Positions 531 through 41,525 of a DNA stretch of 64,000 nucleotides are shown here, piece after piece. Each line of letters begins with the position of its first letter. Position 1 is the stretch's first letter. Source of the stretch: Ectobius pallidus (taxonomy: Eukaryota; Arthropoda; Insecta; Blattodea; Ectobiidae); the NCBI GenBank assembly GCA_964059195.1, contig CAXKWD010000005.1:140641686-140705685 (forward strand), given 5' to 3'. The position numbers and the translations under genes are program-made. The notes beneath the pieces are model-generated. The model was not told the origin of the DNA, made no database searches, and was given only the letters and a program-made list of their open reading frames with translations.

Positions 531-3500
531 CTGAAATGAATTAAATAATTATTTTACTAAAATTATGCACTGACTATGCCAACCATTGTATATTGCTGTT
601 GCTCTTACACATTTGGGTACTCCATTTAGGAGGATAGATGGCAATTGTGGCCCACTTTTGAATTATGCACCGCTACGGCCAGTCACATTAGATAATGTTG
701 AGTAACTGTAACAAGCATGAGGTGTAGAGTTGAATGTATATAGTAAGTGTGGTGATGAGGTGAGGAAAGGTGAAAAGGTGAAAAGGAAAGCTGGTGCTGG
801 CATTAGGCTAATCTAATCGATAGACACCTAGTGGACGACTAAGTTTAACATCTCCAATCCAATGGAAAACCACTATGAACAGTGACATATGGCTCCACTT
901 CACACGCAGAGGTTTGGGTTTGAATGCAGGTATATTTGTTGTAAAAACTAGTAATTAGAGGTTGTACAGCACTATCTCTCCTAATTCCAGTCCTCAGACT
1001 TAGATTTTAAAAAATCCAATCCTAACGGGAATTGAACCCAAGCCACCAGATTAGAAGTTAGTTATGCTGCCGACTGCACCATGGGAAAGAACATTCTACA
1101 ATAGATGATTTTAAAAGATAAGTTACATTTAAACCTTAAGTTAAAATAAAATTTAAAAAAATACACGCACCTCGAAATGCCCTATTAGGACAATTTCTAC
1201 GAATATGTCCCTGTCTGTGACAATAATAGCACGACCTGCATTCTATGCAGTTGGCAGAAAGTCTAACTACCTGATTACTGGCTCGGGTTGTGAGAGAAAA
1301 GTTCTATGACCATCATTCTCGGATCTTAAGGAATCCGAAAATTCAATAGAATGAAACCTGGCACATAGCAGATCTAATTGTTGGAAATTAGAAGGCCTAT
1401 TTTCGAATATACCTATGCTCCTAGCTTTTGGTGATATCCCATCCAAAATACTTCCTACTATCTGAGTTTCAGATTGCCCAACTAGGAAAGCATCTGCATA
1501 AGATCTTATATCCTTCACGTATTCAGAAAAGGCTTCATTTTCACCCTGGACCCTATAATACAATTTAATCACAAGTCCTATACAAGCCCTGGATGGCAAA
1601 AAATATTCAAGAATGATTTCATGGAAATAAGCCAAATCCCTGTTTTCTTGGACTGCCCTACCAGCTAATTGCTTCATACCTCCTTTTAAACCAGCAAAGC
1701 ATAAAGCCACAATTTGTTTCTGACAAAGCCCAAAAATTTCAACTTGTCTTAAGTTCACCCCAAGAAGCCAAAATTTAACTCTCTTCCAAAGAATGGTCAC
1801 TAAAATGTTCTAACCTGTCTAACAGCTTGCCCAAAGGATGGGGAAGTTTATCAAAATCAATACTAAAATCAAACTAACTTTCTAACAACCGGATTTGGGG
1901 AATGCTCAAGATCATTACCTGAAACAGGTTCACTATTAAGAAAAGGATTCTGAGAACCACCTTTCGAGTCACTTGCAAAAAATGTTTTTGGTGAAATGCC
2001 GAAACCCCTCGTTACATTTCTGGCCAAATGATATTTGACTCTCTCTTTCTCCAGCAATATCTCCTGACTCAGTAACCAAAGTGAGACACTATAATCTAAA
2101 GCGATATCCATTTGTGATAAGTCATTTATTCTGTTTAAGATATGATCAAACTTAGCCAGGAGTAGTTTTGCCTGTTTTTGAGATAACTGACCATCTGCAA
2201 GTTCTTGGCATTGCTGAAATCTCTCTTCAGCTTTAGAAATGAGAACCGAAAATTCACCAACAGGTTTGATATCTTTTAAGTTAATTTGATCAACTGGACT
2301 TGCCAAATTGTCTTTCAGTAGCTTAGATAGATTCACAACCGAATAATCAGAATAGACTTTAATATCTCGAACTAACAATTCGTAAATAATATCGGCCTTC
2401 AGCAAAAATTCCACTGAAACATATATCCTGTTACTCATGGTGGGAAATTTATTTAAATAACAACGGCAAAGTACTATTTTAGTGTTAGGTTAGAAAATAA
2501 TTAAGCAGAATGTGAAGTAAATTAGGCATAATCCCAATGGCGCGGACCCATTCACGTGATATTCACATTTCCACGGACTGTGTGATATTTTTGTTTATGA
2601 GGGAGGTAATGTGACCAACACCCCCCAAAATCCAGCCTCGGTGTCCATGTCGCGGGGGGTGGGCAACGATAAGTAGGAGATTGCCTGTTGGGGTGAAGTA
2701 CGGTGGGGACATTTGTGCCCCGGGACCGTCACGGTAGCCGTGAAGGCCCAACAGGAACTCTGAAAACGTCGGCGAACGAGGCAATGGTTGCAGTTGGAGC
2801 GTCTGACCCAGAGTGGGCGGCTTCAATCAAGGCTAGGGAGCTGCTGCCTTGCAGGTTGAGAATTGGTCTTCTAAAGGCTATGGGAAGAAAACCCAGAAAA
2901 GAAATTACCTGGTCCCCCAGGTTGGGGGTTGGAACGTTGGGCTGACTACTCAACTTCTGGAAAAAGCAATTGTTGAGAAGCCTCTATCGAAGCCTCGGAA
3001 CCAGGACAGATCTCAAAGGAAACGACTTTGGCAACGAAATATGGTACTAGAATTTGGAACTTGGAATGTCAGAACTTTAAATAAGACTGGTGCATTGATG
3101 GCATTACTATTGGAACTAAAAAAATACAAAGTACAGGTAGCTGCAATACAGGAGACAAGATGGCATGGGACAGGGATAAATGATTATAAAAGCCATACAG
3201 TATTGTATAGTGGTAAGAAAGAAGGCACACATGAATATGGAGTAGCCTTTATTGTAGATAAAGTAATCAAAGAAAAGATAATTGACTTTAAACCTGTCAA
3301 TGAAAGAATATGCGTGCTGAGACTAAGAACAAAATTTAACAACATAGCAATGATAAATGCTTACGCACCTACTGAGGAAAAAGACCCATTAGAAAAAGAT
3401 GAATTTTATGATAGGATGGAAAGAGTTCTGGATTCCCTTCCAAGTAATGATACAAAAGTTATCCTGGGAGACATGAATGCAAAGATTGGAAAGGAGATAG

Positions 3501-6500
3501 AGTATAGAAAGATCACTGGCAATAATAGCTTGCATGAGATCACAAATGACAACGGTAAGAGACTGATAGACCTTGCCGAGAGTAGAAACATGATTATAAG
3601 CTCCACACAATTTCCTCACAAGAAAATCCACAAGCAAACATGGAGATCCCCGGACAAAAAAATAACAAACCAAATTGACCATATATTGATTGATAAGAGA
3701 AGAGCATCTGGAATCACAGATGTGAGATCCTATAGAGGGGCTGATGCAGACTCGGATCACTACTTGGTTAAAGCTAAGTACATATGTAAGATCACGAGAA
3801 CTACAAACAAACAGTATACCCCAGCTGTTAAATATAATGTGTCAGCACTTAAAGAACAAGAGGTCTTAGTGAAGTATCGAAAGATACTAGACGAAAGACT
3901 CAAAAGTGCAAATGAAAATGAAAATGAAAATGAAAATGAACAGGAAGAAGTAGAACCAAGGTGGGAAGAGCTGAAGAAAATTATTAAGGTAACAACGGAA
4001 GAGGTAGTCGGCCATGAACCAAAAGTTCCAAGAAATTGCTGGTTTGACAGGGAGTGTGCCCAAGCTCTGGAAGAAAGAAGCATGGCACGTAATAAATATC
4101 TTGCACGGCCTACCAGAGCAAAGTATATTGAATTTCAATCTAAAAGAAGAGAAGCCAGCTACATATGTAGACGCAAGAAGAGAGAGGTGAACAACAATCG
4201 AATAATGGAAATGGAAAGGAATTTCCAAGAAAATAACATAAGACAGGGATACAGGGAGGTGAGCTACAGAAAGAAAGGATTTGTTCCAAGAACGGATATG
4301 ATTAAGGAACAAAGTGGGAACATCCTTAATGAGCAGGAACAGGTTTTAGATAGATGGAGAAGTCATTTCCAACAATTATTGAATAACGAAACAGGAAATG
4401 AAGAGATTTTAGAAGATTTTAACGAAGGTTTTAGAGAAGAAGAACTGGAAGAACCAGATAGAATAGACATAAGAATGGCAATTGAAGCATTAAAAAATGG
4501 CAAGGCACCAGGGATTGACAATATACCGGCAGAACTGATTAAAGCAGGGGGAGAATCAATGGAAAAGGCAGTTCACTCACTGATAATACATATCTGGAGA
4601 AAGGAACAGATGCCCAAAGAATGGCAAACAGCCATAATATGCCCAATCCACAAGAAGGGTGACCGACTGGACTGCCATAATTACAGAGGCATATCGTTGC
4701 TATGTACTGTGTATAAAGTCTTCACATATGTGCTGCGGAAAAAACTGGAACCATACTATGAGAGCATAATAGGCGAATATCAAGCTGGTTTTCGGAAAGG
4801 CAGGTCTACCATAGATCAAATACACACAGTTAAAATTATGTCAGAGAAATTCTGGGAATATAATCTGAACTTATACCATCTTTTTATAGACTTTAAGACG
4901 GCTTATGACAGTGTAAACAGAACTGGAATATATAGGATCTTAGCCCAGCAAAAAATACATCCGAAGATAATAAGACTGATCAGAATGACAATGTTAGAAA
5001 CCAGAGCACAAGTCAAAGTGTTTGGTGGCATATCTGAAGCCTTTGTTGTTAACAGCGGGCTGAAACAAGGGGATGGATTGGCACCGATGCTATTCAATAT
5101 CACACTAGACTGGGTGATAAGGCAAACGGATATAGATATTAACAACACATTGATGTACAAGAGTGTACAAGTAGTTGGCTACGCAGATGATCTGGACATC
5201 ATGGGTAGATCAAAAGCCAAAATAGAAGAGGTGCTTAAAGATCTTGAAAAAGCAGCAGGAAAAATGGGACTGAATATTAACAATAGTAAGACTAAGTGGA
5301 TGACGCAGTCTAGAAACGCCCTAATATCCAACCAACTGATAGAATTAGAAAGGTTTGGTACTACAAGAGATTTTAAATATCTTGGATCTGTTATAACTAG
5401 CGATAATACAGAAGGGACAGACATACAGACACGCATGACAGCAGCAAACCAAACTTACTTTGCATTATTGGACATCATGAAATCAAGATGCGTACATAGG
5501 AGAACCAAATTCCGAATTTATAAAACAGTGATAAGAACAGTGCTCTGTTACGGATGTGAAACCTGGGTAATGAACAAGAAGATAGAATCAGACCTAGGCG
5601 CATTCAAAAGAAAGATCCTGAGGCGGATAAGTGGACCAGTTAATGAAAATGGACAATGGAGGATAAGGTATAATCAGGAATTGATGGAGCAATATCGAGA
5701 TATGGATGTAGTAACTTACATCAAACTCCGAAGACTGGAATGGGCTGGACACGTTAATAGGATGGAAAATCAGAGGATACCCAGGAAAATCATGGAGGGA
5801 AGGATATATGGTAAAAGACCGGTTGGAAGACCGAAGGATAGATGGGTCGACGCAGTGAGAGAGGATGCAAAACAAGTTTTGGGAATAACGGCCTGGAAAA
5901 GAGTGTCGCTGGACAGATCTGATTGGAGGAGGAGGATGGAGGAGGTCAAGGCCCGATTTGGGCTGTAGCACCATTGTAGAAGAAGAAGAATGTGACCAAC
6001 TGTTCTTGTATATAGTGACAGCAGATGATTTTATGCTGTGCACCAGCCAAGCTCCGCTGTTTTGTTAGGTTAGGAACATTTATGTTAGTTAAGGAGCAAT
6101 ATACAGAAAAGCATGAGGCAAGCTCCACTGTTTTGTTAGGTTAGGAATGTTTATGTTAGTTAAGGAGCAATATACTATTTCTTACGAGCAGCTAGAGGCT
6201 TTTACCTTTGTAGGTTTGTCAGACTGTTCAGCCTCAATTAGCGATATGACGTCACATCTCCAATGTCCAATCATGAGGAAGAGGACAGAAAAATGGCGGA
6301 GAAAATGGAAGTTTTCGCTAGATCGTGATATAAAAGAAAGTGAATCAATTAGGGCGGGTTGGTCGGACCAAATCATTCGCTGAGACAACATCTCCTCTCC
6401 ACACATCTATCTATAACAAAATTCGTGTGATATAAGTGTTTTATGAAGAGAATCTCTGTTCTAAAAAAATGGTCCACGCCAATGAGATTTTACCATAAAT

Positions 6501-9500: not shown

Positions 9501-12500
9501 ATACGTAGCTCTGCCATATCTTCCTTAAGTTCTGTAATCCAGCTTATATTTTTCTTACTCTTACTCTTCCATAATTTTATATAAACATTAATCCATTTTA
9601 ACCCCTAATCATTAATGTTTATTTTGTAATTACTGTTTGTAATTTAACCCCTTAACCTACTATCATGACTCTGAGCTGTGAGCACAATTCCATGTGTACC
9701 ATCACTGCTGCCATACGAGTTTGAACCACAGATTCCCCCCCCCCCCCCAGCTTTCTGTCAATAGATGGCATGACATGCCTTATACTCATTTTCAAGCTAA
9801 AGGAATAATATATTTAATAGTAGGCCTATGTGTTATATACATTTTTAGTTATAAGTCAGTATGAAAATCTAAAATAAAGTGACAATGACGAACCAACACC
9901 ACCAGCACAAAAAATAATTAAGAAGACAAAGCAATAAGGTTTGGAAGTGGATTGAAACTGTGGATTGAGCATCAGAATTTTATTTTTATCAAAAACCAGT
10001 CATAGATCGTAATCTTTCCACTGAACCAAATCTGAAAGCTTTTCAGCTTGTGGTCCATGACTCGCTCTGGGATAAGATAGCCAGAGAAACAGGTTTGCCA
10101 TAAAATTTTGTAATAAAAATCCTAATTCTTTTCCAGTAACATGATGGCTCCCTAAAGCTTTGGATGAAATATAAGCTTACTTTGCATGGCCCAGTAAAAG
10201 TAGCAAATTTACATATTAAATTCACATTTTTGTCTGGAAATATTAGAATTTATGGGTGCACCATGTGCAAAAAAATATCATCCTAATAGGTTATCCCTTT
10301 TTTTTTTTAAAATTTTTTTTTAAACAAAATGGAAATAGCATACCAGAAAGAATGTGAGAAATCTATATTTGGAATAAAAGTGACATTATAGGATCAGGCT
10401 CACTTTAGAGTTTCCAATATGGGTAAGTCCTTCTTTGGAAATGATAGCATTTCTACAGGTTGAATTTAAGCACAACAGAGCCTTTTCCGGAAAGTGATAT
10501 TTTGTGTAGCCTACTTCTAAAGCTGATAATTTTGTATCCAATGTAATGCCAATAACTCCATTTGTGTATTTTGTGGACAAAACAAGTTATGGATACCAGC
10601 CATAGATCAATGAAATATAAATTTTTATTGCACATTATTGTACACCTATGTATAAAATGTTACTACATAAAAGGAATTCATACTACAAATTGTTCCATCT
10701 GGAAGATACGAGGGCGTTTCGTAAAGTAAGTTCCAATATTTATTTTGCAGAAAACACTTTATTGTGGGGACTTTACACACCAGTAACAGTACATCCTTTC
10801 AGCTATTTTTCAACATAATTTCCACTAACATTCAGACATTTGTCATACCGCTTCACAAGCTTCGAAATTCATTCTGCATAAAACTCTGCCGCCTGTGCGT
10901 GTAGCCACCCAGGGAAGCTCTCCTTGAGCTCCTCGTCCGTTTGAAACCGCTGCGATCCAAGCCATTTCTTCAAGTTTGGGAAAAGGTGGAAGTCGCTGGG
11001 AGCTAAGTCAAAACTATATGGTGGATGCTGAAACATCTTCCACCGGAATCGTTGCAAGAGAGTTTGAGTGCATACAGCAGTATGTGGCCGAGCATTGTCA
11101 TGGATCATGCCGGAACTCAACATGCCACATCGTTTGTTCTGCAGTGCTCTCCTCAATTTGGTTAGTGTGTCACAGTACACATCCACGTTTATTGTTGTTC
11201 CTCGTGCCATGAGCCATGACAGTTGCCATGAGCTTTTGGTGTGAAAATGATTGGAGATATTTTTGTGGTTTCGTAGGGGAGTTGGTGTGATTCCATATGC
11301 CATGGATTGTTGTTTCATTGCAGAATTCACGTATTGAACCCACATCTCATCACCAGTGACAATTTGGTCGAGAAACATCTTCAGTTTGGTAATGCTGAAA
11401 AAACGTCAATGCTGCTCCCATTTTGGGCTTCAGACAACGAGCACAAAACTTGCGATACTGTAACCTTTCTGTCACCACTTGATGAAAATCAACAAGCAGA
11501 GAATAGGAAGAGTAGTTCCAGAAGCAGAAAGAAAATTGCGGTCAGAAAGGATGAAAAAGTACTGGGCTCACAAAAAGAAGAAAAACCTCAACCAGAAACC
11601 TGACTAAAGTGGTCCTATGAAGGCCAAAAAATTAAAATTAAATTAAATAGCTTTTAACTAGGTGTTACATGGTATAAAAATAAATATTATTCTAATTAGG
11701 ACTAAAAAAGTATAATGATTCCAAAAATAAATATAATTAATTAGGGGTTAAATGTATGGTGCAAATCAAACATAGCAGCACCTTATATTCTTCTCACCAG
11801 CCAAATTGTCTATTTTCAGCATGGAGTAATAGTAGTTGTAAAGAGCATAGTTCTTGCGTTTGTAACGGTGGATTTTTCTATTAAACAGCGCATTTTAATT
11901 GCTGAAACATATCTTCTGAAAAAATGTGTATGTAAATTGCATTTGCAAATTTGAAAGACTATGTTATCCCAGAATACATAAAAAATAATATTATATAATT
12001 ATCCTACATATAACATACTATTTAACATAAAGATCTAAATGGTCTTCTTGTCCCATAAAAAAACTTACGCTTTCTCACTTAATAATTAAATTCAAAACAA
12101 ATAACTACAATACAGAATATATCTCATCCAATCCTTCATTTCAGCCTTAAATTAAAAGATTAATGATTATGCTACCTTTGTACGGTAGGTATAGGTGGAT
12201 GAATAGGCCAAATCATCTACACAACTGTATGAATGGGGCAACAAACTGGATCATATTTAAATAAGAAGAAATTGTATCATAAGAGAGCTCTACTCATGAA
12301 AATCTTAATGATATTCATGTGAGAATCGAAGATATCCTAAAAAGCCAAACTGTCATTTGTTCAAGAAGTTGGGATTTCACAAATATCAGTGTTAAGGAAC
12401 TTAAAAGTTTTCGGTTTTGTCCCAACAAAGTTTGTGCTGTTCATACCTTACAATCTCCTGAATATGATACTTTGTTTTTATAAAGTTTTGGTTTACACTC

Positions 12501-15500
12501 ACAGAATTCAAGACTCTGGGATACTGAAAAGTTTCAAAAGAAGACTCGAAGATGATGTGATGTGTTTAGAAATTTTACTTATTTGAAGAATAATTTAATC
12601 AGATCAGCCTTTAATAACCAGTAATTATGTAAACTGGATGAATAGAAGTCTATTTGCATGTTGCCTATCAATGCTTGAAATGAAAGAAAATCAGGTAACT
12701 TAAACTGATGTAACAAAGTGCCAGTATGTTTTTTTGTTTAATCAGTTATGATTGCAATTATGATATGCAGAATACAAAAAAAGTCAAATTGGCCGGTTTC
12801 AGGATTTGAACCATGGAACTCCAGAATGTGAGACCAAGAAGTTACCATCTCAGCCACCTGGGTCAGTTTAACGGTCTAGTTCGATAAGCGCAAGTAAAAC
12901 AATAGTGTTATTTGTCATAGCTAACTGTATTTTAATTTCCAAAGCCTTATAAGATCACAGTAAAACAATAGGCTATGTTGTCATGATAACTGATTCACAT
13001 TTCATAAATTCTTTCGAATACGTATATTACCATAAAATAGACACTAAATTGAGCATTACTCCGAAACAGGTCAACCGATTTCATCTAATATCAATAGACG
13101 TCTTCCCATGGACATTATAAACGTGTATATCAAGTTCCATAAAAATCCGGTAAAGCGTATTTGAGTTACCGCGTCTTTAAAATAGACACTAAATTGGTTT
13201 TTACTCCAGTACCGGTCTACCGATTTGGTCCAATATCAGTAGACGTCTTCCCATGTACATTATAAATGGGTATACAAAGTTTCAGGAAAATCCAATAAAG
13301 CATATCTGAGTTATCGCGACTTCTTATATATAATAACATAAAAGGCTCTAAATTGGGCATTATTCCGGTACTGGCCAACCGATTTAGTCGAATATCAATA
13401 GATGTCTTTCCATGGACATTATAAATGCGTATACGAAATTTCATAAAAAACCAATAAAGCGTATTTGAGTTATTGCACCTATAAAATAGGCACTCAATTG
13501 GGTTTTACTCTGGTACCGGTCAACAAATTAGGTTCAAATTCAATAAGGTACTTCTCATGGACGTCATAAATGCGTATACCAAGTTTCATGGAAATCCGAT
13601 ACAGCGTATTTGAGTTATGGCGCCTTTCTATTAGAAAGGCACCATAATCTATTAAAATCGGCACTAAATTGGGCATTACTCCGATACTGGTGAACCGATT
13701 TGGTTCAATATCAATAGGGTTTTTCCTATGGACATTATAAATGTGTTTTCCAAGTTTCATGAAAATCCGAAAAAGCGTATTTGAGTTATGGCGCGTACAG
13801 ACTGTACAGGCGGACAGACATTTTTCGTCCCCACACACAATCTCATAAAGTACCATACTGGCACTTAATAAATACCATAAATGGAATGGTCAACATAATG
13901 CAGTCTGTGGGAGTTCATATACACAATGAGGGAAGTGTGGCGGTATGCGCCGGTATGGAATACTGGCACTGGTTTCAAAGGTTCAATGAAATACCAGCAC
14001 TGGTTTCAATGGTCAAATAGCATACCGACAGTGAAAATCAGTGGATGTTAAAAAAATTGTTAACGTTCCTTTGAATCAAAGAGTAGGTCCTCTAATCTGT
14101 ATGAGTTGTAATATAATTACTTTTCATGATCATTCATCCACTGGCATGCTTTCTACGTAGCCATTGCCAGAATAGAAGTCCGTGGTCAGTAACTTGTGAT
14201 GGTCTTTGTTGCGATCTTAATGACTAGAGCTGGGATTTCTATGTAATTACATATTTTGTTCCTTGCTATTTAGATGCTGGGAAAAGAGATATCTTCACAA
14301 ACCACTATGTTAGGGTTACTGTAACTGAATTTCATTTTACATATTTTTAAGTATATTACATATTCTTGTGATGTTACATAAAATTACATATTTCAATATT
14401 TTCTTGTTTCACATGTGTAAATTTCTCTATAAATTTTATACTGAAGCTATGTGGATATTGTCACTTGCCACAATAGGAAGATTAAGATCACTGACTGGTA
14501 TTGAAAAGCAAGGAATGACCATACCAGGTAAGAAAGGGTTGACAGATGATTGACAGCCACTTAAGAGCATGACCACTACATGAAAAGAAACCTATTAGCC
14601 CTAATGGTTTTGTGAATTATTCCATAAAACTGTTGTGAATTCTGCACTCAATACTTTTACTATATACTTTACATCTCCCTTTTAACAATGCCTAATTTTT
14701 CTTTTCAAAGAGGTAGGCTACTGTTGATTGGATTTTCCAGTAATATTTTTAAATTTGTTCTTTTGTTGGGAATTCCAGTTAACCTTAAATCCCAAACTGT
14801 TTTTAGTTTCATTCAGAATCAAAGTGGGTAAGTGAACAGTTTACTTCAGTTCTTTCTAGTGCGAACATGGCACCAGTGTCATCTTCGCTGTCTTCAAAAT
14901 TAAAATCATGGACTGCAATTGACGAGTGTTTTACGACTGACGGCAAAATAGTGATTTGTCAAGATTGCAACAAACACATAGGATGCTCTATGAAATCCCA
15001 GCTTGAACAGCATTTAAGAAGTGCACTGCATAGAAAAAACAAACAATTACGTCAACCGACAAAGCAAATGCTTTTAACCCAGATGAAAAATTCAACTTCA
15101 ATTAACCCTTTCTATAAGGATTTGTGCAGTGCAATGATTGCTGCTAACATTCCATGGTACAAGATTCAAGTACCTGAATTCAGATCTTTCTTGGAAAAAC
15201 ACTGCAAGCAACATATACCAGACCATTCAACACTACGCAAAAACTATCTACACATCTGCTACGATGAGGTAATGGACAGCATAAGAGAGTACATCGGAGA
15301 TTCTTTCATATGGGTTTCGGTTGATGAAACAACTGATTCTAAGAGACGTAACATAGCAAATCTCATGGTAGGAAAGTTGCAACCTGACAGCGCTTCTAAC
15401 CCGTGTTTAATCTACTGCAAAGAGCTGGACCGTACTAATCATTCAACTATTGCAAGATTTGTGAATGATGGACTAAAAGTTTTGTGGCCTACCGGAACTC

Positions 15501-18500
15501 AAGAAGAGAAAGTATTAGTGCTATATTCTGATGCAGCACCATACATGCTTAAAGCTGCAACTTCTCTGAAGGTATTTTACCCGAACATGCTCCATTTGAC
15601 GTGGCTCATGGTTTGCAACGTGTTGCCGAGGACATAAGAGTTAAATTTCCAGAAGTCAACACATTAATTTCGGCAACAAAAAAAGGGTTTCTAAAAGCCC
15701 CACAGCGAGTGAACTCATACAAAGAGCAACTACCAGGAATACCATTGCCTCCAGAACCAGTTTTAACTAGGTGGGGAACATGGATTGAAGCAGTGAACTT
15801 TTATGGTGAACATTTCGATGACATAAAGACTGTTGTAGATTCTTTAGATCCTGAAAATGCTGCATGTATTCGTGAATCTCAGAGTGCCTTCAGCGATTCC
15901 AAAGTGGTTTGTGCTGTCTCCTACATTAGGAGCAACTTTAGCTGGCTACCGGAGAGCATCACACGCTTGGAAACTTCAGGACTTCCAATTCAAGATTCTA
16001 TTGGTGTTGTGGAAGATGCAATTGAAAAACTAAGTGCAGTGCATGGGGAGAGTGGTGAGAGTGCATTGAATAAATTAAAAACCGTTTTGAGAAAAAACCC
16101 TGGATTTTCAACATTTCGCAGTGTGTGCCAAATTCTAAAAGGGGACATTATAGATTGTCCTGAGGACATCTCACCGGAAAATATTCCTTTGCTAAAATTT
16201 GCCCCAGTGACATCATGCGATGTTGAGCGGTCATTTTCCGCTTATAAGAACATTCTTTCTGACAAACGGCTATCATTCACCCCAGAGAACTTAGAAAAAT
16301 ATTTAATTGTTCACTGTGCTGCAAAATTTAATGAATGAATGTCTCTATATTAGAATTTGTGTGTTTACTCATATTATAATATTTTTACTTGATAAGACTG
16401 AGAGCTAATATTCGAAATCAGATTAATACAATGTTGTTTCTAGGTTACATTTTCATCAAATAATAACTGTTCACTGTACTAAAAAATGTAATGTTAACGT
16501 ATGAATGTCTCTTGAGCATAATGTTAAGAAATTGAAATGAAATATTTAATATTTTATATTACATATTTTTCTACATATTTCCCCAATTTTCACTACATAT
16601 TTATGTACATATTTTCCAATTGATACTACATAAAAATCACAGCTCTATTAATGACTATACCGCTAAATGTGATTTTCTAAAATATATTTCTTAGTAATTA
16701 AAAAAATTAACTTTTAAATAGGTCTTAAATACATTTAAAGTATCTTTATTGAAGTGAATGAAGGTATATCAATCAACAGTACAAGATGTTTGAGGCTTAT
16801 GCTTGGAGATCATGTATAAAATAGGGTTGGTTACTCAAGGAAGAAGTTAATTAAAAACACCATCCACTGTACAGAACAATTTTCTACATAATAATTATAT
16901 AGTAAAGGAGGGGATATACTTCCAAATTGACATATGATAGGGAAAAATCTTGGGATAACATACTGCCTCTGGTTTTTTCTCACTTCCTTCACTGCAGATA
17001 CATGAGTGTTTTACTCACCGACATAAAGCTGTGGAGTGGAAGCTTGAGAGAAGTCCACCTCAGCCAAACAGGAGTTGAGATGATAGTATGTGTCATGAAG
17101 TAGCTGCACTTTGCTAAAGTCTCCCTCATCGAAGTAAGCATGTGTAATGAGTGCCATCTTCACTTGGATGTGTCCGTAGAGTGGCAAAGTGCTTAAGACA
17201 CAAACTGATTTTTGCACAGTCCCTCTTGTGATGTCGGCTGTCTTATTTGTCAGTTTCTACAAGATAAATTACATATACAGTTAAGAGCATTAAGAGGGTT
17301 ATGACTAAATTCTCTACACCCAAAATTGTATCTCAACTCATATTACCTTTAATGTAACTTTGGTTTTCTGACAGATAGCTGTAGGGAGTTCAAGGAGAAA
17401 CATCCTGACGATGGTTCTCGGCCTTTTTACCTTTTCACACACCACTACTTCCTTCTCCATAAAATTTGTTCCACTCTCAGGGTTGGTGGCACAAGTTGCA
17501 GTTTTGAGTATGTAGTTAGGGCCTATTTACTTACAGGTAGGGAATGCTTACCAAGTGCTACAAGCAACAAGAAGTGGCAACCATGTCAGAATACCAAAGT
17601 AATTTTTACACCAGTATCATAATAGCAAAGAATTTTAATAGCAGTATATGTACAGAGAGTTGGCCTCGGTGGTCTAGAGGTAGTGTGCTCGCCTCTAGAT
17701 CCAAAGGTTGCAGGATCAAACCCGGCTGTGGTCGAACAGGATTTAAAAATCCTGGGCACGGAGTCCTCCGGGAGGGACTTTAAGCTAGGGGCCCCATGTT
17801 GTAGATTTAGTACCTCCTTTCTTAATGCTGGTAAGTAAAGCCTTTAAACATAGTTAAGGAAATTGCTGAATGGTTGCTTCAGCACTACTCTTCTATAGAT
17901 GCAGACAGCAACGTATGCCACCATTGCGAACCGGAAAATCACTGTGCAGCCGTTTCATAGCTCACTGAGTCCTATGCAGTAACTTACCAGTGGCATATTT
18001 AGGAATTCTCTGCACCTAGGCTCACAGTAAATGCCATCCTTGTTATAAATAACAAAGATACTTATAGCAGATTTATACCCTATACCTATCCTATAAATTT
18101 CGTAAGTATGTAATGTTTGCATTTGACATACTCAATGCATCCTAAAAAATAATTACCAGAATATTATATTTTCCTCTGTTTACACATCGATTTTTAAGGA
18201 ATGTTCATCACAACTTGTAGCCTATGGAATGCTTTTATGCCCGACTGGTTGGTTGCTGCTTAGCCAACAGCTTTGAATTCAGAAGAACAAGTGCAAGGTT
18301 AGTGACAGGTAACAAGAGGCTAGTGACAGGTAGCACAAGGTTAGTGACTGGTAGCACGAGACTAGTGACAGGTAGCATGGTTTGTGACAGGGTAATGATA
18401 GGTAACTCTAATGACACACCCATCACCACCGTCAAGTTTCCTGCCCTGCTTCATTATATCGAAACTCCATATTGCTCCCCTGCCTATATAGCCACAACTA

Positions 18501-22298: not shown

Positions 22299-22387
22299 TA
22301 GTATTGTAATAGATATATAAGCTTTCATGAACCACAGATTATTGTCTCTGTTGGACACTACATGATAATATTATAGGAGAAAAATTC

Positions 22388-22460
22388 CTCCGACACTGGG
22401 ACTTGAACCCAGGACCTTTGGCTATTCGCGCCAATGCTCTACCAACTGAGCTAAGCCGGA
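22388..22460 (-). repeat. tRNA-like module (non-canonical)
   Basis: A cloverleaf can be drawn: acceptor TCCGGCT/TGTCGGA, D arm GCTC/GAGC, anticodon stem TTGGC/GCCAA, T arm CTGGG/CCCAG with loop TTCAAGT. The anticodon loop is GCGAATA, so position 33 is C instead of the near-universal U, and acceptor pair 7-66 is U-U. I treat it as tRNA-derived, not a working tRNA gene; the nominal anticodon would be GAA. Confidence 0.7.
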
Positions 22461-22507
22461 GTCCAATTCACAGCGCCGGATGGAACCTCTCTCCTATGAC
22501 TGATTGC

Positions 22508-22685
22508 CAGTGGCGGACGCAGAAATTTTTTTCGGGGGGGGATTTGAATAGGTAGAAAAAATACTTAAAAAAATTAATCAACTTACATATACAATTAGTT
22601 TATAAAACTGGCCACTTAGAGTACTTTTTTTCAAATTTCGGGGGGGGATGTAACCCCCCTATCCCCCCCCCTGCGTCCGCCACTG
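22508..22685. mobile_element. hAT MITE, 178 bp
   Basis: The ends are CAGTGGCGGACGCAG and CTGCGTCCGCCACTG, perfect inverted repeats of 15 bases, followed inward by G-rich and C-rich runs. The 8-bp duplication CTGATTGC flanks it at 22500-22507 and 22686-22693. It is inserted in the centre of the tRNA-like mobile repeat and so is younger than that insertion. Confidence 0.92.
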
Positions 22686-22909
22686 CTGATTGCCCTAATG
22701 GGCAACAGAGACAATAATCTGTGGTTCATGAAAGCTTATATATCTATCTTGAATGTCAACTGTACAATAACAGTGGGAGCCCGGTCACAAAAATCACTAA
22801 TTAGTGTGCCTCACAGTACTGCATATGACATAACTTGTCTGTCTGTGAGGTAGACCATTTGGGCAATCAGTCATAGGAGAGAGGTTCCATCCGGCGCTGT
22901 GAATTGGAC

Positions 22910-22982
22910 TCCGGCTTAGCTCAGTTGGTAGAGCATTGGCGCGAATAGCCAAAGGTCCTGGGTTCAAGTCCCAGTGTCGGAG
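22910..22982 (+). repeat. tRNA-like module (non-canonical)
   Basis: This is the plus-strand partner of 22388-22460, identical across the module by eye, with the same GCGAATA loop and G-U pair in the acceptor stem. Confidence 0.7.
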
Positions 22983-23209
22983 GAATTTTTCTCCTATAAT
23001 ATTATCTAGTATTGTAATAATATGTAACAATAAGTATATCATACAACTTTGACCTGCTTTGGTAGAAAATTAATCTAACATTTTTAAAATGTAAAATTTT
23101 TATGGTCGGCTATAACATTGCTTCTCTAGTGGGTAGATGTAGAAAGTCGTGTCCAAGAAACCTTTGAATACTATTACTAGTGTCAGTTTTGTTTCCGTAA
23201 CAATATAAA

Positions 23210-23331: not shown

Positions 23332-24691
23332 TCAGGTAAACTGATGTAAAAAAGTGCCAGTATGTTTTTGTTTAATCAGTTATGACTGCAATTATGATAT
23401 GCAGAATATTTTTTTTTTGAAATTGATTTCCAAGTTAAGCTCCAAATTTATTCATTAAGCAGGGCTTACGGAAGAAAAAAGGTCTATTTTTTTTTAATCG
23501 GATTAAAATCTTCCAGCATCAGCTGAACTGTACAGATTTGTGATATCTTGACAATCGCACACTCACATATAAATACAAAAAAAAAAAAAAGTGAAATTGG
23601 CCGGTTTCGGGATATGAACCATGGAACTTCAGAATGTGAGGCCAAGACGTTACCATCTCGGGCACCTGGGTCAGTTTAACGGACTAGTTGGATAAGCGCA
23701 TGTAAAACAATAGTGATTTTGGTCATAGCTAACTGTATTTTAATTTCCAAAGCCTTATAAAATCACAGTAAAACAATTGACTATGTTGTCAAGATAAATG
23801 ATTTGCTTTTTTTTTATATAAATTCTTTCGAATACATATATTATCATAAAATAGGCACTAAATTGAGCATTACTTCGAAACAGGTCAACCGATATTATCC
23901 AATATCAATAGATGTCTTCCCATGAACATTATAAATGTGTATACCAAGTTTCATAAAAATCCGGTAAAGCATATTTGAGTTACCGCGTCCTTAAAATAGA
24001 CACTAAATTGGGTTTTACTCCGGTACCGGTCTACCGATTTGGTCCAATATCAGTAGACGTCTTCCCATGTACATTATAAATGGGTATAGAAAGTTTCAGG
24101 AAAATCAAATAAAGCATATTTGAGTTATCGCGATTTCTCATATATTAACATAAAAGGCACTAAATTGGGCATTATTCCGGTACTGGCCAACCGATTTGGT
24201 TGAATATCAATAGAGGTCTTCCCATGTACATTATAAATGCGTATACGAAGTTTTATAAATATCCGATAAAGCGTATTTGAGTTATTGCGCCTTTAAAATA
24301 AACCCTAAATTGGGTTTTACTCCGGTACCAGTCAACATATTAGGTTCAAATTCAATAGGGCACTTCTCATGGACGTCATAAATGCATATACCAAGTTTCA
24401 TGGAAATCCGTTACAACGTATTTGAGTTATGGCGCCTTTCTAATAGAAAGGCGCCATAATCTATTAAAATAGGCACTAAATTGGGCATTACTCCGGTACC
24501 GGTGAACCGATTTGGTTCAATATCAATAGGGTTCTTCCCATGGACATTATAAATGTGTTTTCCAAGTTTCATGAAAATCCGAAAAAGCGTATTTGAGGTA
24601 TGGTGCGTACAGACACATGGACAGACAGACAGACGGACAGACTTTTTTCGTCCACCACACAATCTCATAAAGTACCATACTGGCACAACAC
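23332..24691. repeat. Minisatellite-bearing dispersed repeat, copy B
   Basis: It starts TCAGGTAAACTGATG and ends near ATACTGGCAC. A tRNA-like block lies at about 23597-23675. Five tandem units start near 23847, 23996, 24150, 24296 and 24470. It interrupts a LINE reading frame, which fixes its edges: host sequence AATAATAAAA lies on the left and TTACCTCACTG on the right, with no host duplication evident. Insertion without target duplication supports a rolling-circle type of transposition, as in Helitron/Helentron elements. That is inference. Confidence 0.7.
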
Positions 24692-30590: not shown

Positions 30591-31093
30591 CTTCTTAAAA
30601 TCATTACGAATACATAAAAAAGAAAAAAATTATTTAATAATCTAAATTTTAAAGGCCCTCGCAATACGAGTATTATATTTTCTTTTTAATGTATAGGATA
30701 GATAAAGAATGTTACATGTTACTAATGATAACGATTTCCCTTCCATATAATTTTCAAGATAATAACGACTATTATGGTTATGCATGGTAACCAGATTTTG
30801 TCTGTACATGTTAGTTTATCATATTTCATAATATCAACTATAGGACTGTGCTGTACAGGTCAGGAATAAGAGTGCTGTTGGTAGCAATTTGTTCTCATGG
30901 ACGGGCTGTAAATTCCAAAGCCGTATTATAATCCTCAGCAAACTGACAATTTCACATTCGTTATTTATTTATTTACGTAGTGGATTTCAAAGCAAAGCAA
31001 CAGTCTATGGTCTCATGAAGTGACAACTGTAGTTGAGTTCAGTTCAGGTAAGAAACAAAGTTTGGAAATGGTGCAGGAAACAATTAGTGATTA

Positions 31094-32543
31094 TGAGAAT
31101 ATTAAAGGAGAAAAATTCCTCCGGCACTGGGACTTGAACCCAGGAGCTTTGGCTATTCGCGCCAATGCTCTACCAACTGAGCTAAGCCGGAGCTCAATTC
31201 ACAGCACCAGATAGAATCTCTCTCCTATGACTAATTGCCCTAATGGTCTACCTCACAGACAGACAAGTTATGTCATATGCAGTACTGTGAGGCACACTAA
31301 GTAGTGATTTTTGTGACCGGGCTCCCACTGTTATTGTACAGTTAACAATCAAGATAGATATATAAGCAATCATGAACCACAGATTATTGTCTCTGTTGGA
31401 CACTACATGAGAATAATAAAGGAGAAAAATTCCTCCGGCACTGGGACTGAAACCAGGGCCTTTGGCTATTCGCGCCAATGCTCTACCAACTGAGCTAAGC
31501 CGGAGCTCAATTCACAGCACCAGATAGAATCTCTCTCCTATGACTAATTGCCCTAATGGTCTACCTCACAGACAGACAAGTTATGTCATATGCAGTACTG
31601 TGAGGCACACTAAGTAGTGATTTTTGTGACCGGGCTCCCACTGTTATTGTACAGTTAACATTCAAGATAGATATATAAGCAATCATGAACCACAGATTAT
31701 TGTCTCTGTTGGACACTACATGAGAATATTAAAGGAGAAAAATTCCTCCGGCACTGGGACTTGAACCCAGGGCCTTTGGCTATTCGCGCCAATGCTCTAC
31801 CAACTGAAAGGCCCTGGGTTCAAGTCCCAGTGCCGGAGGAATTTTTCTCCTTTAATATTCTCATGTAGTGTCCAACAGAGACAATAATCTGTGGTTCATG
31901 ATTGCTTATATATCTATCTTGAATGTTAACTGTACAATAACAGTGGGAGCCCGGTCACAAAAATCACTACTTAGTGTGCCTCACAGTACTGCATATGACA
32001 TAACTTGTCTGTCTGTGAGGTAGACCATTAGGGCAATTAGTCATAGGAGAGAGATTCTATCTGGTGCTGTGAATTGAGCTCCGGCTTAGCTCAGTTGGTA
32101 GAGCATTGGCGCGAATAGCCAAAGGCCCTGGGTTCAAGTCCCAGTGCCGGAGGAATTTTTCTCCTTTAATATTCTCATGTAGTGTCCAACAGAGACAATA
32201 ATCTGTGGTTCATGATTGCTTATATATCTATCTTGAATGTTAACTGTACAATAACAGTGGGAGCCCGGTCACAAAAATCACTACTTAGTGTGCCTCACAG
32301 TACTGCATATGACATAACTTGTCTGTCTGTGAGGTAGACCATTAGGGCAATTAGTCATAGGAGAGAGATTCTATCTGGTGCTGTGAATTGAGCTCCGGCT
32401 TAGCTCAGTTGGTAGAGCATTGGCGCGAATAGCCAAAGGTCCTGGGTTCAAGTCCCAGTGCCGGAGGAATTTTTCTCCTTTAATATTCTCATGTAGTGTC
32501 CAACAGAGACAATAATCTGTGGTTCATGATTGCTTATATATCT
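31094..32543. mobile_element. Palindromic tandem array of tRNA-like units, mobile (locus 2)
   Basis: The 1450-bp block is flanked by the 12-bp duplication AATTAGTGATTA at 31082-31093 and 32544-32555. It consists of 314-base units, each a tRNA-like module plus a conserved spacer (landmarks GACAATAATCTGTGGTTCAT, GGGAGCCCGGTCACAAAAAT, TGTGAGGTAGACCATTAGGG). Two whole and one truncated unit lie on the minus strand (modules 31119-31191, 31433-31504, 31746-31807), then a truncated and two whole units on the plus strand (to 31838, 32080-32152, 32394-32466). The units are almost identical. The turn-around at about 31785-31807 leaves a loop of about 30 bases. The outer ends match those of locus 1 in mirror image. 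Confidence 0.85.
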
Positions 32544-32715
32544 AATTAGTGATTACTTTCATTAGCATATGTAACTGTATTATTATTCATTCTATTATTA
32601 TACTTTTCACCAAGTTTTTGTGTGTTAATTTGTAAATATTCGATAAAACGAACAAACTGAAAATCCCAATTAGATCGGGCAACTGATTTTCCATTGTATT
32701 AGAATTAGGCAATTG

Positions 32716-36688: not shown

Positions 36689-37774
36689 TAGTAAAGCTTC
36701 ACTGTCTAAAAAACTTCATTCTAAACTTTGTAAGAGTACCATAATAATTTTGTTTTAAAATTGATTGAATTCCAACAAACAGAGGTCATAACTACTGAAA
36801 AATGATTAGGAAGATTAGTTTAACTTCGTTGATCACTCTAAGCTTTGAGTCTATCATATGTCAGAAATTTCAACTTCAGACACAGTGAAAAGAGAGGAGA
36901 AAGAGCAAGTTCATCACATACCAAAGACATAAGTAAAACAATATGCTTGGTATGGTGTTTTAAGTGTACATGCTGTAGCAACCGAACTCACTAATATGTT
37001 TTGCACAGGTAATTAACCCTATTCTCAACCTTCTATTGAACCTTTCTCTTGTGAATTTTATAACAAAAGTGGTAACAGGCTTGCAGAAAACAACTGGTGG
37101 ATCAGAAGGTTAAGATTCCACAGAGCTACGTTATTGGTCAACAGTAACAATTCGTGTTTTAAAGTATTGTTGTAAAAGGGTATTTCTAAAATAGCTTTAT
37201 TGTTGTAGTGAGTGTAATTTAACATGATTAAGTTATGACATTAGCCAGGACCAAAAAGAAATATCGCTAAATGCAGGTTTATTGTTATATTGATCTTCAT
37301 TATAGAGAGGTTCGACTGTACTACATATCGAAGCTCCCAGAATACTGAAAACCCATGACTTTCAAAATCTTTCAGATTCTTTTTATTAATACAGTACAAC
37401 TCCTTGCACAATTTCTCAAAGAAAGATGTACATGACTCCATGTTTCCTTGCCAGTGAATTAAACTTGCCATTCTTATAATGATCACCTAGAACATCAGAC
37501 ATACATCCTGTTACTTCTACCTGTGGGAGTATTTAAATGCTATCATGTACTTAACCCACAGCCAGGAGATTTCCTGGAGTTGCAACACGGATTTTGTTTC
37601 CTACAGTCTTTGGAGCCCACTCATTACTACAGGAGCCTGATTAGTGATTTCATACAGTAAAAGTTGTCTGCATTGAGTACATATGAAAATGAAATGGAAA
37701 TTTAGAGTTTTTCTTTCTAATCTGATATACTTTATTCCTGTTTTACTATTTTAAATGTAATTGTCACTGAAAAT

Positions 37775-38641
37775 TACATGAGAATATTTAGGGGAAAAAT
37801 TTCTCCAAGACTGGGATTTAGCTTTCTGTGCCAGTGCTGTACCAACTAAGTTAGCCTGAGTTTGATTAACAATGTTCTTGGTGGTCGACCTCACTGAAAG
37901 ACATTTATGTCAAATTTATGTCAAATACAGTAATGTGAGGCACATTAATTTAGTGATTTTGTGACCGAAGGGTGATTATCAGGGCCCGGATTCTGATGAC
38001 CTAAAATTGTTTGAAAAATGACCTATAAAATGACCCTAAATTTTAAAGAAAATGACTCAATAATTATAAAAAATGACCTAAAAACTGATATTTTATTTAT
38101 AAAAAATTATTATAGTACACAAAAATAATACAAAATTTTGGCGATTCTTTGATTCTCATTTCCGACTGAGACATGACAACACTTAACGCCGAATTTTTCC
38201 TTCTTGCATTAAACAAACTAAACTTCAAAGATAGCACCACTAGCGATGAAAAAAAAAGTTAATACTCTCAATGTAAATACATGAAAATGACTAAATAAGG
38301 AAGCAAATGACATGAAAATGACAAAATAATGACCTAAAATTGAAATAAATGCCCTAAAAATATAAAATTGCATAAAATGACAAAAAATGACCTAATAAAA
38401 ATGCATTTCTGTAATCTAGAGGCCATGATTAGGACTTATCCACAAGTTGGCAATGTCTCTGCAGCATCAATAAAAAGATGACATGTCAATAGAATCCGAG
38501 CCCTGGTGATTATAGTAAAGAAATTTCATCCGTGTCTACAAAATGAACTCACGCTAGCTCACTTGGTAAAGCACCAGCACGAAAAGTCAAAGGTGACAGG
38601 TTCGAATCCCAGTATCAGAGGAATTCTTCTTCTAAAATATT
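37775..38641. mobile_element. Degenerate inverted tRNA-like repeat (locus 3), split by a hAT MITE
   Basis: The left part (about 37775-37979) carries a decayed minus-strand tRNA-like module with AATTTCTCCAAGACTGGGAT and GTACCAACTAAGTTAGCC. The right part (about 38514-38641) has a decayed plus-strand module with GCTAGCTCACTTGGTAAAGC and GGTTCGAATCCCAGTATCAG. The order minus then plus is the same as at loci 1 and 2. The spacer also keeps TGTGAGGCACATTAA and TTTGTGACCG from the family. The centre is occupied by the MITE 37980-38505. Confidence 0.65.
37980..38505. mobile_element. hAT-like MITE, 526 bp
   Basis: The left end CAGGGCCCGGATTCTGA and the right end TAGAATCCGAGCCCTG are inverted repeats with one or two mismatches. 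The 8-bp duplication GTGATTAT lies at 37972-37979 and 38506-38513. The interior repeats words of the ATGACCTAAAA type. There is no coding content. Confidence 0.9.
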
Positions 38642-41525
38642 CTTAAATATGATTTTCTAAAACTGCAACTACATCTTTTTTTATTCAATCAGCATAATGA
38701 AGTACAGTCCCCTGTGCTTGTGTTGGTCTGTGTGACCGATGTTACAATCCGGGTGGCTGTTGCACAAAGCACATTTACTTATATGTTAGATCCATAAAAT
38801 AACTTGGTTTGAGCAATGTGTCAATGCTTAATGCAAACGTTCTATCAAAAAGAAACAACCACATGAGCCCACACTCTGAAGCACTGGTTAAACATTCAGT
38901 AAGACATGGGGCTTGTAAGCAAACGTGCCCCTGCTAATTATTATTCGACAATCCTCACACTAAAAGGGCACTGCCATGCATAAGGACTGCAAGTGAATCC
39001 TTTAATTCCATGGCTCTAATGAGTCATTCCATGCCAAACCATCTCAGCTTCCAACTAAACTATGTTAGATTTTTTAAATTATGGTAGGATAAGGACAGAA
39101 AGGAACTTCCATATTAAAGGATTTATGATAATTATAAAGTGGACTAGTTCAGCTACCAGGCTTTACAAAATGCTCATAACTTGCATCTTACAGTGATACA
39201 ATCTTGATGTGTTTCAAAGCTAAGGATTCAATAATTTAATTAATAAGATAACATTTTAAATTTATTCCAAGTTAAAGATTTGATTTTTCTTCGAGAATAT
39301 CTAAAAGGTGATCATTTAATTTCTCTTATGAGGAAAAAAATTACAAACTAAGAAACCTTAAGAGCTGATGGTCAACTTATATACACTTTAAGCTCCACTT
39401 ACGTCACATTCATTCCCCAAAACTAGTCCAGGAAAGAATGTGACGTAAGTAGAGCTTAAAGTGTATATAAGTTGACCATCAGCTCTTAAGATTCATTAGT
39501 TTCACTGTTTATATCACTTCCCGCGTTTATTGTTTTATTTAAACTAAAAAATATTTATCTTCAAATATATTCTATTGTAAATGACTTTAAGAGCAAGAAG
39601 AGAAAGAAGACGAACAGCAGCAATAACATCAACAGTGGTAGGCCTAGCAGTGTTAGTAGTAGTGATGGTAATAATAATAACAAAAAATAACAATAATCTT
39701 CATAATAATAGTTAACATACTTGCACCTATATCTGACCTCAGTTAGAATTGGTTATGAATCAAATTCATAATGAAGTAGTCACATGATTTTTGTGGTCAT
39801 TTCTTGAATGCAAGTAATCGAGATCAAGTAATTAGTTGCAAATAACCCCCCTACTCTAAGTATTTGATACTTCAGACATGAAAAGCACTTTAAATTTCAG
39901 AAATGAAACAATTTCAGGACTGAACTTGTAATAGGCATTATTCAAACTATGAAAATGTACTTTTACAGAAAATCTCATAGAAGAAATGTCACTGATTTGA
40001 AAGTGTACTCTCATTCCTCCATTTAAATTACATCAGATCGTACTGGCCCATCATCTGAAGCATCAACAACTTCTGAGACGTTTTTAGTCATAGTATGGGA
40101 GTAATACCTAATACAGGTTTGAAGTGAAGATGATTATTTGTCATGGGCACTAAAAATAGCAGAACTTGCCACTTAGCCTTTTTCTCTGCTACTGACGTAT
40201 AAATTTGTCGCAGCAAGAAACTGCATAAAAACAGAATTATGAAATTAATAGTGTAATGATTTATGCTAAAATGTAAGGATTTTTAATCAAGTGTTATGGT
40301 CGTCATTCTTGGTAACCAACTATTTCACTGAAATGTTTTATATTGATTTCAAACTTATAATTCACTGATGATTTCACTTGATCATTGCTTAAATTGATAT
40401 GTAAATTCAGTTCTGAAAGGGTTAAATACTTGCTGTGGAAGCGAGGAATGAAAGTATTTGAGTGCATAGTTTTAAAACCCTCATGTATCAAACGTGGAAT
40501 AATATAGCTTTAACTCTATACATTTACAATTGTCTATTTGTCCCTGAAGTCATTCCAAGATAAAACTTAAACAAAAAAGAGAATGTATATATTTTATTTA
40601 AGAAGTTAAAAGATCAGTATTTAGATACTGAAGGTCAAAGGAATCTCCCAGTGTTAGTAGAATAAAAAGGTAATTGATATCAAATAAAACTAAATTCCAT
40701 TAGCTTCAAAACAAGCTATTAGAGAAGTTTTTACCTGAATCTGAAGCTGATTATGAATTCATTTTGTTCATCAAGCAGGCAAACATCTGGCATTTTTATT
40801 CATGTTGGCAACCCTCCTGTATGAATATTAAGCATTACTGAGGGTTAGGATTTTAAAATGTAAGTTATTTTCTGTCCTCTACAATTCTACCAATTTTCAT
40901 GAAAATATCTTATGGTTGTTGAAAAGTCTACTTTTCTTGTGATGATTCGACATGGAATATGACTGTAACTAAACTGAACAACTTTTAATAGAAAAATCAA
41001 TCTTGCAACACTAATCTAAATATTTCCCATCCCATTCTCAAGACATTAGGAACTCTATTATGAGAACATTAAAGAACTCCACCAGTTATTAAAATCTCAT
41101 GTAAACGTTTGAATTTTTCTACCATATTAACAACAACATTTTTTTTGAAGAATTAATAAACATAAAGATTAAGTTTGATACAAAATTTTACAAACCTTAA
41201 CAAAGTACTCCATTGTATAAATACCAACATCTACATGCCAACAACATTCTGTAAGTACAAAATATTCGATAACACAAAACTCAAAAGCTGGCTGAATGAA
41301 CAACCTCTCTGTTGTTCGTAATATCAATAGGGAAATAAAAAACATAATCTCACAAAACTGAAATCCCTTCCCTCCCCAGAAACTACAGTATTAACTAACA
41401 GTTTAACCATTCCTCATGGTTAGTTATATAAAAAAAATAGTACAAAATGTTATTGTGCTCTTGGTGGAGTAGTTCAGTCATTAGCTAACAGTGGTAAGAA
41501 TTCCCTAGTCATACAGCATTCGATG
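38642..41525. other. AT-rich region, probably FoxJ 3' UTR in its right part
   Basis: This lies downstream of the FoxJ stop codon on the minus strand. Without transcripts the UTR length is unknown. One minus-strand AATAAA is at 40598-40593, about 930 bases past the stop, and others are possible. No coding sequence was recognised. A perfect-looking hairpin at 39357-39490 is listed separately. Confidence 0.4.
39357..39490. repeat. 60-bp-arm hairpin
   Basis: The arms 39357-39416 and 39431-39490 are inverted copies with two mismatches, separated by 14 bases. They start CTTAAGAGCTGATGGTCAAC and include TATATACACTTTAAGCTC. No hammerhead or tRNA-like motif was found inside. It could be a tiny foldback insertion. 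Confidence 0.75.

Follow-up and report, generated by a model that had tools for sequence, protein, structure and literature searches.

Structure of the head-to-head block

The block at 31082-32555 of the window (the whole 64,000-nucleotide stretch of Ectobius pallidus DNA that was analysed) consists of two head-to-head arms of a 314-bp tRNA-bearing unit, flanked by a 12-bp target duplication (TSD). The unit recurs with a period of 313-314 bp, two units and a partial one on the minus strand being followed by two and a partial one on the plus strand, and the inverted unit pairs are 94-100% complementary, which bears out a preliminary description of the locus as near-identical 314-base units running head-to-head, minus strand first. 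The minus arm (31094-31807, about 2.3 units) has its outer end at unit position 99, here called site A, and its inner end at unit 13; the plus arm (31807-32543, about 2.35 units) has its inner end at unit 43 and its outer end at unit 151, called site B. The strand switch at 31807 lies within a tRNA-like module. The 53 nt from unit 99 to unit 151 form a PLE-like tail at the outer end of the plus arm only (32491-32543, plus strand). The perfect 12-bp duplication already noted around the block, AATTAGTGATTA, occupies 31082-31093 on the left and 32544-32555 on the right; of about 20,000 random pairs of ends in the window, allowed a slack of 3 bp, one showed a repeat of at least 12 bp. No open frame of at least 150 aa overlaps the block, and the insertion ends inspected showed neither a poly(A) tail nor one of short repeats.

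Four tRNA-like modules were recognized in the block by ARAGORN and Rfam, the best with 54.7 bits; they lie at 31119-31191 and 31433-31504 on the minus strand and at 32080-32152 and 32394-32466 on the plus strand, and a partial module (31749-31813, minus strand; 21.7 bits, below the gathering score) spans the head-to-head joint. The module of each complete unit has the anticodon GAA, and the two outer modules (31119-31191 and 32394-32466) have in common a T at unit 48. An A box is found at unit 9 and a B box at unit 53, as judged by the usual Pol III box motifs, and a TTTTT run follows at unit 78-82. Since this run precedes both start sites and would end a transcript before site A, a simple Pol III transcript of the module could presumably not be the template for the insertions. 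The usual base at position 33 of the anticodon loop is U; the module, as read from the sequence, has C in its place, so a role in translation is unlikely. Among the majority letters of the loci, 6 of 75 sites vary within the module versus 33 of 239 elsewhere in the unit, varying sites too few for a claim of selection on the module. It may act in RNA processing, in transcription or in recognition by a protein. No Rfam hammerhead was found in the block up to an E-value of 5, and the motif CTGANGA occurs on neither strand of the unit; 39 unit loci searched with a stem filter also gave no hammerhead, the same filter having missed the hammerhead-like cores of PLEs as well.

Further copies in the window and in the genome

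Two further head-to-head loci of the window, and the existence of two distinct fixed end positions in the unit, were overlooked in the preliminary description. The second copy (22299-23019) has a minus arm from site B and a plus arm to site A, is split by a MITE-like insert and is flanked by a perfect 13-bp TSD, TAGTATTGTAATA (22299-22311 and 23007-23019); it is flipped relative to the first copy, and both end at the same two unit positions. The third (about 37751-38654) is an old head-to-head copy with uncertain ends, also split by a MITE-like insert, with 64-86% identity across the aligned pieces and an imperfect TSD (TTAAATGTAATT and TTAAATATGATT, 10 of 12 bases matching by eye). The MITE-like elements, at 22509-22685 in the second copy and 37977-38508 in the third, have inverted ends and short duplications (ctgattgcc; gtgattat) and look hAT-like by eye.

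A search of the 2.12-Gb assembly (410 contigs) with the unit gave 260 matches in the best 40 scored of 1870 first-look candidates. Thirty-nine loci outside the window were fetched from the matches listed, and as these are the best-scoring copies they represent the youngest part of the family. Two of them, L039 and L040, are copies of a single insertion. Thirty-six of the 39 are head-to-head, and the other three (L019, L036 and L038) have a plus arm only and no TSD of at least 10 bp. The preliminary description had named a genome populated mostly by single, one-directional units with varying ends as the outcome that would speak against its reading; the tabulation of copies gave the opposite picture, 36 of the 39 fetched loci being head-to-head with fixed ends. 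Twelve loci with older copies were fetched by means of a second query (40 scored of 3441 candidates): six are head-to-head (L069, L073, L075, L076, L077 and L079), three are one-armed (L070, L071 and L072) and three run beyond the fetched stretch (L074, L078 and L080). A one-directional subfamily, considered on the strength of short matches to the second query, was dropped once six of these 12 proved to be head-to-head. Three exact patterns of the unit had no match in the public collections searched, viral_contigs for two of them and genome_contigs for one.

Delimited insertions have one end at site A and one at site B

Of the 39 insertions tabulated, 36 come from fetched loci, one is an additional copy in L018 and two are window loci. 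In 37 of them an end within unit 95-103 (site A) is paired with one within unit 148-159 (site B), and 76 of the 78 outer ends fall inside the A or B windows, the chance expectation being 11%. In L020 and L027 the script had chained the boundaries around neighbouring copies or inserts; once the boundaries were corrected, both loci showed an exact 12-bp TSD and, by eye, one A and one B end. All 33 insertions with boundaries set by an exact TSD of at least 10 bp (one of the L039/L040 pair omitted) pair an A end with a B end, and in none do both ends fall at the same site; in this set site A spans 93-104 (mode 97) and site B 143-157 (mode 152), and the interval of about 53 nt from A to B is present on one arm only in 33 of 33. 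An exact TSD of at least 10 bp accompanies 34 of the 39 insertions, or 36 after correction of the two boundaries, the exceptions being L031 (12 bp with one mismatch), L013 (8 bp) and the first L018 copy (none). Exact TSDs span 8-16 bp and are mostly 12-14 bp long. The earlier view of the array as a single mobile insertion, with a target duplication and defined ends, holds. At the nicks the 3' ends finish in A, T or G and never in C (66 ends), and at the two window loci they can pair with RNA past the start site over just 0-3 nt, as judged by eye.

Arm lengths, joints and template

Arm lengths and joints vary freely among the loci, and the longest arm measures 2948 bp, or about 9.4 units, for which a long or repeatedly copied RNA would be needed. 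When measured from site A, the lengths of the two arms are correlated (Spearman 0.49, P 0.004, n = 33). The joints of 33 insertions (W2, L020, L027, L040 and both L018 copies omitted) were compared with 3000 random joints treated by the same method. At least one base is shared at 19 of the 33 joints, and the other 14 share none and carry 1-20 extra bases. Sharing of at least two bases (15 of 33 versus 20.4% expected, P 0.001) and of at least three (9 of 33 versus 10.1% expected, P 0.004) exceeds the control; sharing of at least one base is not enriched in the same comparison of 33 joints with 3000 random ones.

Two loci point to a multimeric template. At the window locus the T at unit 48 occurs in the two outermost copies only, one in each arm, and in L033 two linked variants are confined to copy 1 of both arms; such patterns would be expected if both arms had been read from the same unit of the same multimeric template. 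Most within-locus variants (75 of 81) are private to one unit, and the other three shared variants, in L009, L016 and L025, are out of register. Over all loci the differences between units in the same register (48/15440) and off register (156/43825) are about equal, those in the same register being lower in 11 loci, equal in 7 and higher in 14, and for this reason most loci cannot tell a multimeric from a circular template.

PLE loci of the same genome

A search of the genome for the GIY-YIG domain gave 149 matches over the cut-off in the best 150 scored of 8401 candidates. Among the matches listed, inspection by eye revealed 26 minus-then-plus pairs within 4 kb and no plus-then-minus pair within that distance. 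Twenty-one PLE loci were examined, consisting of the 20 top GIY-YIG matches and L068, which was picked as a pair. Nine could be resolved into arms and a TSD, and each of the nine bears its tail, 40-61 nt long, on just one arm. Seven have the GIY-YIG match within or between their arms, and L058 and L062 are short head-to-head non-coding copies that stand beside a GIY-YIG match and have no GIY-YIG domain themselves. Eight loci (L048, L049, L059, L060 and L064-L067) have arms and no TSD within the limits of the search, and in four (L050, L052, L054 and L063) inverted arms were not found. L068 (877-3749), 2.9 kb long, forms an almost perfect head-to-head palindrome; it has reverse transcriptase and GIY-YIG domains and a 15-bp TSD, and one of its arms carries a tail of 41 nt. 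The TSDs of L051, L053 and L062, three of the nine, measure just 10-11 bp.

Unit positions 60-165 showed no convincing similarity to the nine PLE ends (best match 9 nt, E 0.41). In the 20 GIY-YIG loci the sole strong matches to the unit are unit copies beside or around PLEs in L049 and L051; in L051 the PLE sits between the two arms of an old copy of the tRNA unit, apparently nested. As a small part of the 8401 candidates was examined, membership of the unit family in the PLEs by descent is not claimed.

Four of six folded PLE ends (L057, L061, L062 and L068) display by eye a stem around start site A, the sequence of which changes from one to another (GTGAAG/CTTCAC, GTGGAG/CTCCAC, CACTGA/TCAGTG); it is a possible shared recognition structure, and it was not found in the 314-bp unit. 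Hammerhead-like cores such as CTGATGATGGCGGGAAGACCCGTTGAAA are seen in L048, L053, L054, L057, L062 and L063 with a loose pattern that had no chance control. Rfam gave no hammerhead in eight PLE loci, and the stem filter, which is too strict, gave none even in PLEs.

Proposed mode of insertion and alternatives

It is proposed that the block is very probably a single insertion from a non-autonomous family of retroelements for whose movement a PLE enzyme is responsible. On the evidence of the sequence, the family is most likely of PLE type, with retrozyme-like tandem units and a tRNA-like module in the place of the hammerhead. The assignment is made because the A and B ends match both the published PLE signature and the nine of nine resolved PLEs of the same genome. 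PLEs are described as having inverted, mostly head-to-head pLTRs, with an optional 31-bp tail on one of them, and TSDs of 8-10 bp (PMC3846280). The anole PLE protein PAc cuts and extends both target strands from two adjacent internal start sites, and its tail is the sequence between these sites (PMC11167929). By analogy, a PLE protein, probably a dimer, would bind the unit RNA around the tail and make staggered cuts in both strands of an AT-rich target; on the multimeric unit RNA the two target 3' ends would prime at different sites, one at A and one at B, and the two cDNAs would run unequal distances before being joined, often at a few shared bases, to leave the head-to-head array and the TSD. 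We claim that the unit family works like a PLE insertion, and suggest a descent from PLEs only tentatively. The earlier statement that the array fits no class was too strong, for head-to-head arms, one-ended extension and a TSD are published marks of PLEs and the PLE loci of this genome look alike.

Several observations weigh against the PLE-type reading. The partner PLE was not found, with unit 60-165 having no convincing match to the nine PLE ends; the unit has neither a hammerhead core nor the site-A stem of PLE ends; three of 39 loci are one-armed without a TSD; at 14 of 33 joints no base is shared and 1-20 extra bases are present; and three of the nine PLE TSDs (L051, L053, L062) measure 10-11 bp. 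The alternative closest to it retains the PLE machinery and differs in the template, which would be a small circular RNA of one unit copied repeatedly. The near identity of units within an insertion, with 75 of 81 variants private to one unit, and an arm of 2948 bp or about 9.4 units would suit such a circle; the T at unit 48 in the window and the linked variants of L033 fit a multimer read in the same register, and with same-register and off-register differences about equal overall most loci do not discriminate. We consider a circular template unlikely, though it is the most serious of the alternatives.

Another possibility is that a LINE inserted a linear multimer: target-primed reverse transcription of the ordinary kind would have been accompanied by twin priming, which inverts the 5' part. 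Twin priming is known to give head-to-head inversions with TSDs, the window contains a LINE frame, and the inner ends of the arms do vary. In twin priming, however, the outer end of the inverted segment is expected to be variable and inversion to be a minority outcome, whereas in the present family each outer end has a fixed position, with an A end and a B end in all 33 insertions delimited by exact TSDs, 36 of 39 copies are inverted, and the inspected ends show neither a poly(A) tail nor one of short repeats. The LINE reading is largely refuted by the fixed A and B ends, and we regard it as improbable. Less probable by far is a foldback-type DNA transposon with long inverted repeats made of tandem units, although long inverted repeats with internal tandem repeats are indeed a feature of such elements. 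Galileo (PMC3573991) is an element of the foldback kind. Identical terminal inverted repeats would be expected of it, but the termini differ, one being A and the other B in 33 of 33; moreover, exact TSDs vary from 8 to 16 bp, arm lengths and joints vary freely, and the PLE loci have ends of the same kind. The A/B rule contradicts a foldback origin. Palindromes are hard to assemble, and an assembly artefact or a local inverted duplication at the DNA level had to be considered; dozens of loci with differing unit numbers, joints and TSDs largely contradict this, an inverted duplication would not produce the A/B end rule, and we give it hardly any credence.

The strict rule of one A and one B end, and the substitution of a tRNA-like module for the hammerhead, look new. 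The class of insertion itself is a known one. In vitro the start site of PAc is no different between the two strands, for which reason the rule is not predicted by that study, and the later steps of PLE insertion are stated there to be yet to be validated (PMC11167929). The insertions suggest that an A start is regularly paired with a B start; such a pairing is absent from the text of PMC11167929 and would be of interest for PLE transposition. The unit family supplies many short, young and well-delimited natural insertions in which both starts, both nicks and the joint can be read. A more specific proposal is an obligatory asymmetric, two-ended priming complex on multimeric RNA combined with a tRNA-like module replacing the hammerhead, which would make the family a tRNA-punctuated counterpart of retrozymes, a PLE-dependent SINE; we put this forward as possible and stop somewhat short of calling it probable. 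The replacement of the hammerhead by a tRNA-like module would show that the RNA module of PLE-dependent parasites is exchangeable.

Comparison with known elements

With the GIY-YIG PLEs (Penelope/Poseidon type) the family shares head-to-head organization, a one-ended tail, a TSD, variable arms, tandem units and AT-rich targets (PMC3846280, PMC11167929). Unlike them, the block has no frame of at least 150 aa and no hammerhead core, carries a tRNA-like module and bears no convincing match to the nine PLE ends. The tail of the unit, about 53 nt, compares with 30-40 nt in published PLEs and 40-61 nt in those of the same genome, and the TSDs of the family are longer than the 8-10 bp of the PLEs described in PMC3846280.

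Animal (non-LTR) retrozymes are described as non-autonomous elements made of 150-450-bp tandem units that contain a type I hammerhead (PMC7229834); they have TSDs of more than 4 bp, and PLEs are proposed as their likely movers (PMC7229834, PMC7761336). Expression as small circular RNAs is a further trait of animal retrozymes. PLEs are themselves reported to carry minimal hammerheads (PMC7761336). The unit family resembles animal retrozymes in its non-autonomous tandem units, whose 314 bp lie inside the range of about 150-450 bp, and in its TSD; it differs in that retrozymes are defined by a hammerhead and none was found in the block or the unit. The family is head-to-head, whereas the main text of PMC7229834, on retrozymes, never uses the word "inverted".

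For tRNA-derived SINEs, nine families (Sbg1-Sbg9) are described from Blattella germanica; their description comprises a tRNA head, a body and a tail of poly(A) or short repeats (PMC9191728). The family is like these in its tRNA-like module with A and B boxes, its TSD and its many copies (PMC9191728), and unlike them in forming head-to-head multimers that end at two internal sites, A and B, both preceded by TTTTT, which sustains the earlier distinction of the array from an ordinary SINE. The closest published idea found is that of the tRNA-like modules of Helenus, described as LTR-type TRIMs whose LTR includes a tRNA-like sequence (PMC10886601). A tRNA-like module captured by a repeat-flanked non-autonomous retroelement is common to both; Helenus differs in having LTRs, a PBS, a PPT and TSDs of 4-5 bp and in its dependence on LTR retrotransposons (PMC10886601). 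No tRNA-bearing PLE-dependent family was found in the titles and abstract openings of the open-licence literature among the matches listed, which is weak evidence of novelty because it is confined to open-licence papers.

Other features of the window

The LINE frame (2837-5968, plus strand) is an open frame of 1043 aa that includes an endonuclease domain and a reverse transcriptase domain. A hAT transposase has left remains (DUF659, Dimer_Tnp_hAT) at 14807-16338 on the plus strand, and a fragment at 10869-11405 on the minus strand matches Transposase_1, these matches having modest E-values, two of them below the curated cut-off. At 23835-24603 a sequence of about 145 bp is repeated in tandem (4 copies, 76% matches). 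For one protein frame of the window the best named relatives are from Blattella germanica (50% identity) and Cryptotermes secundus (49%).
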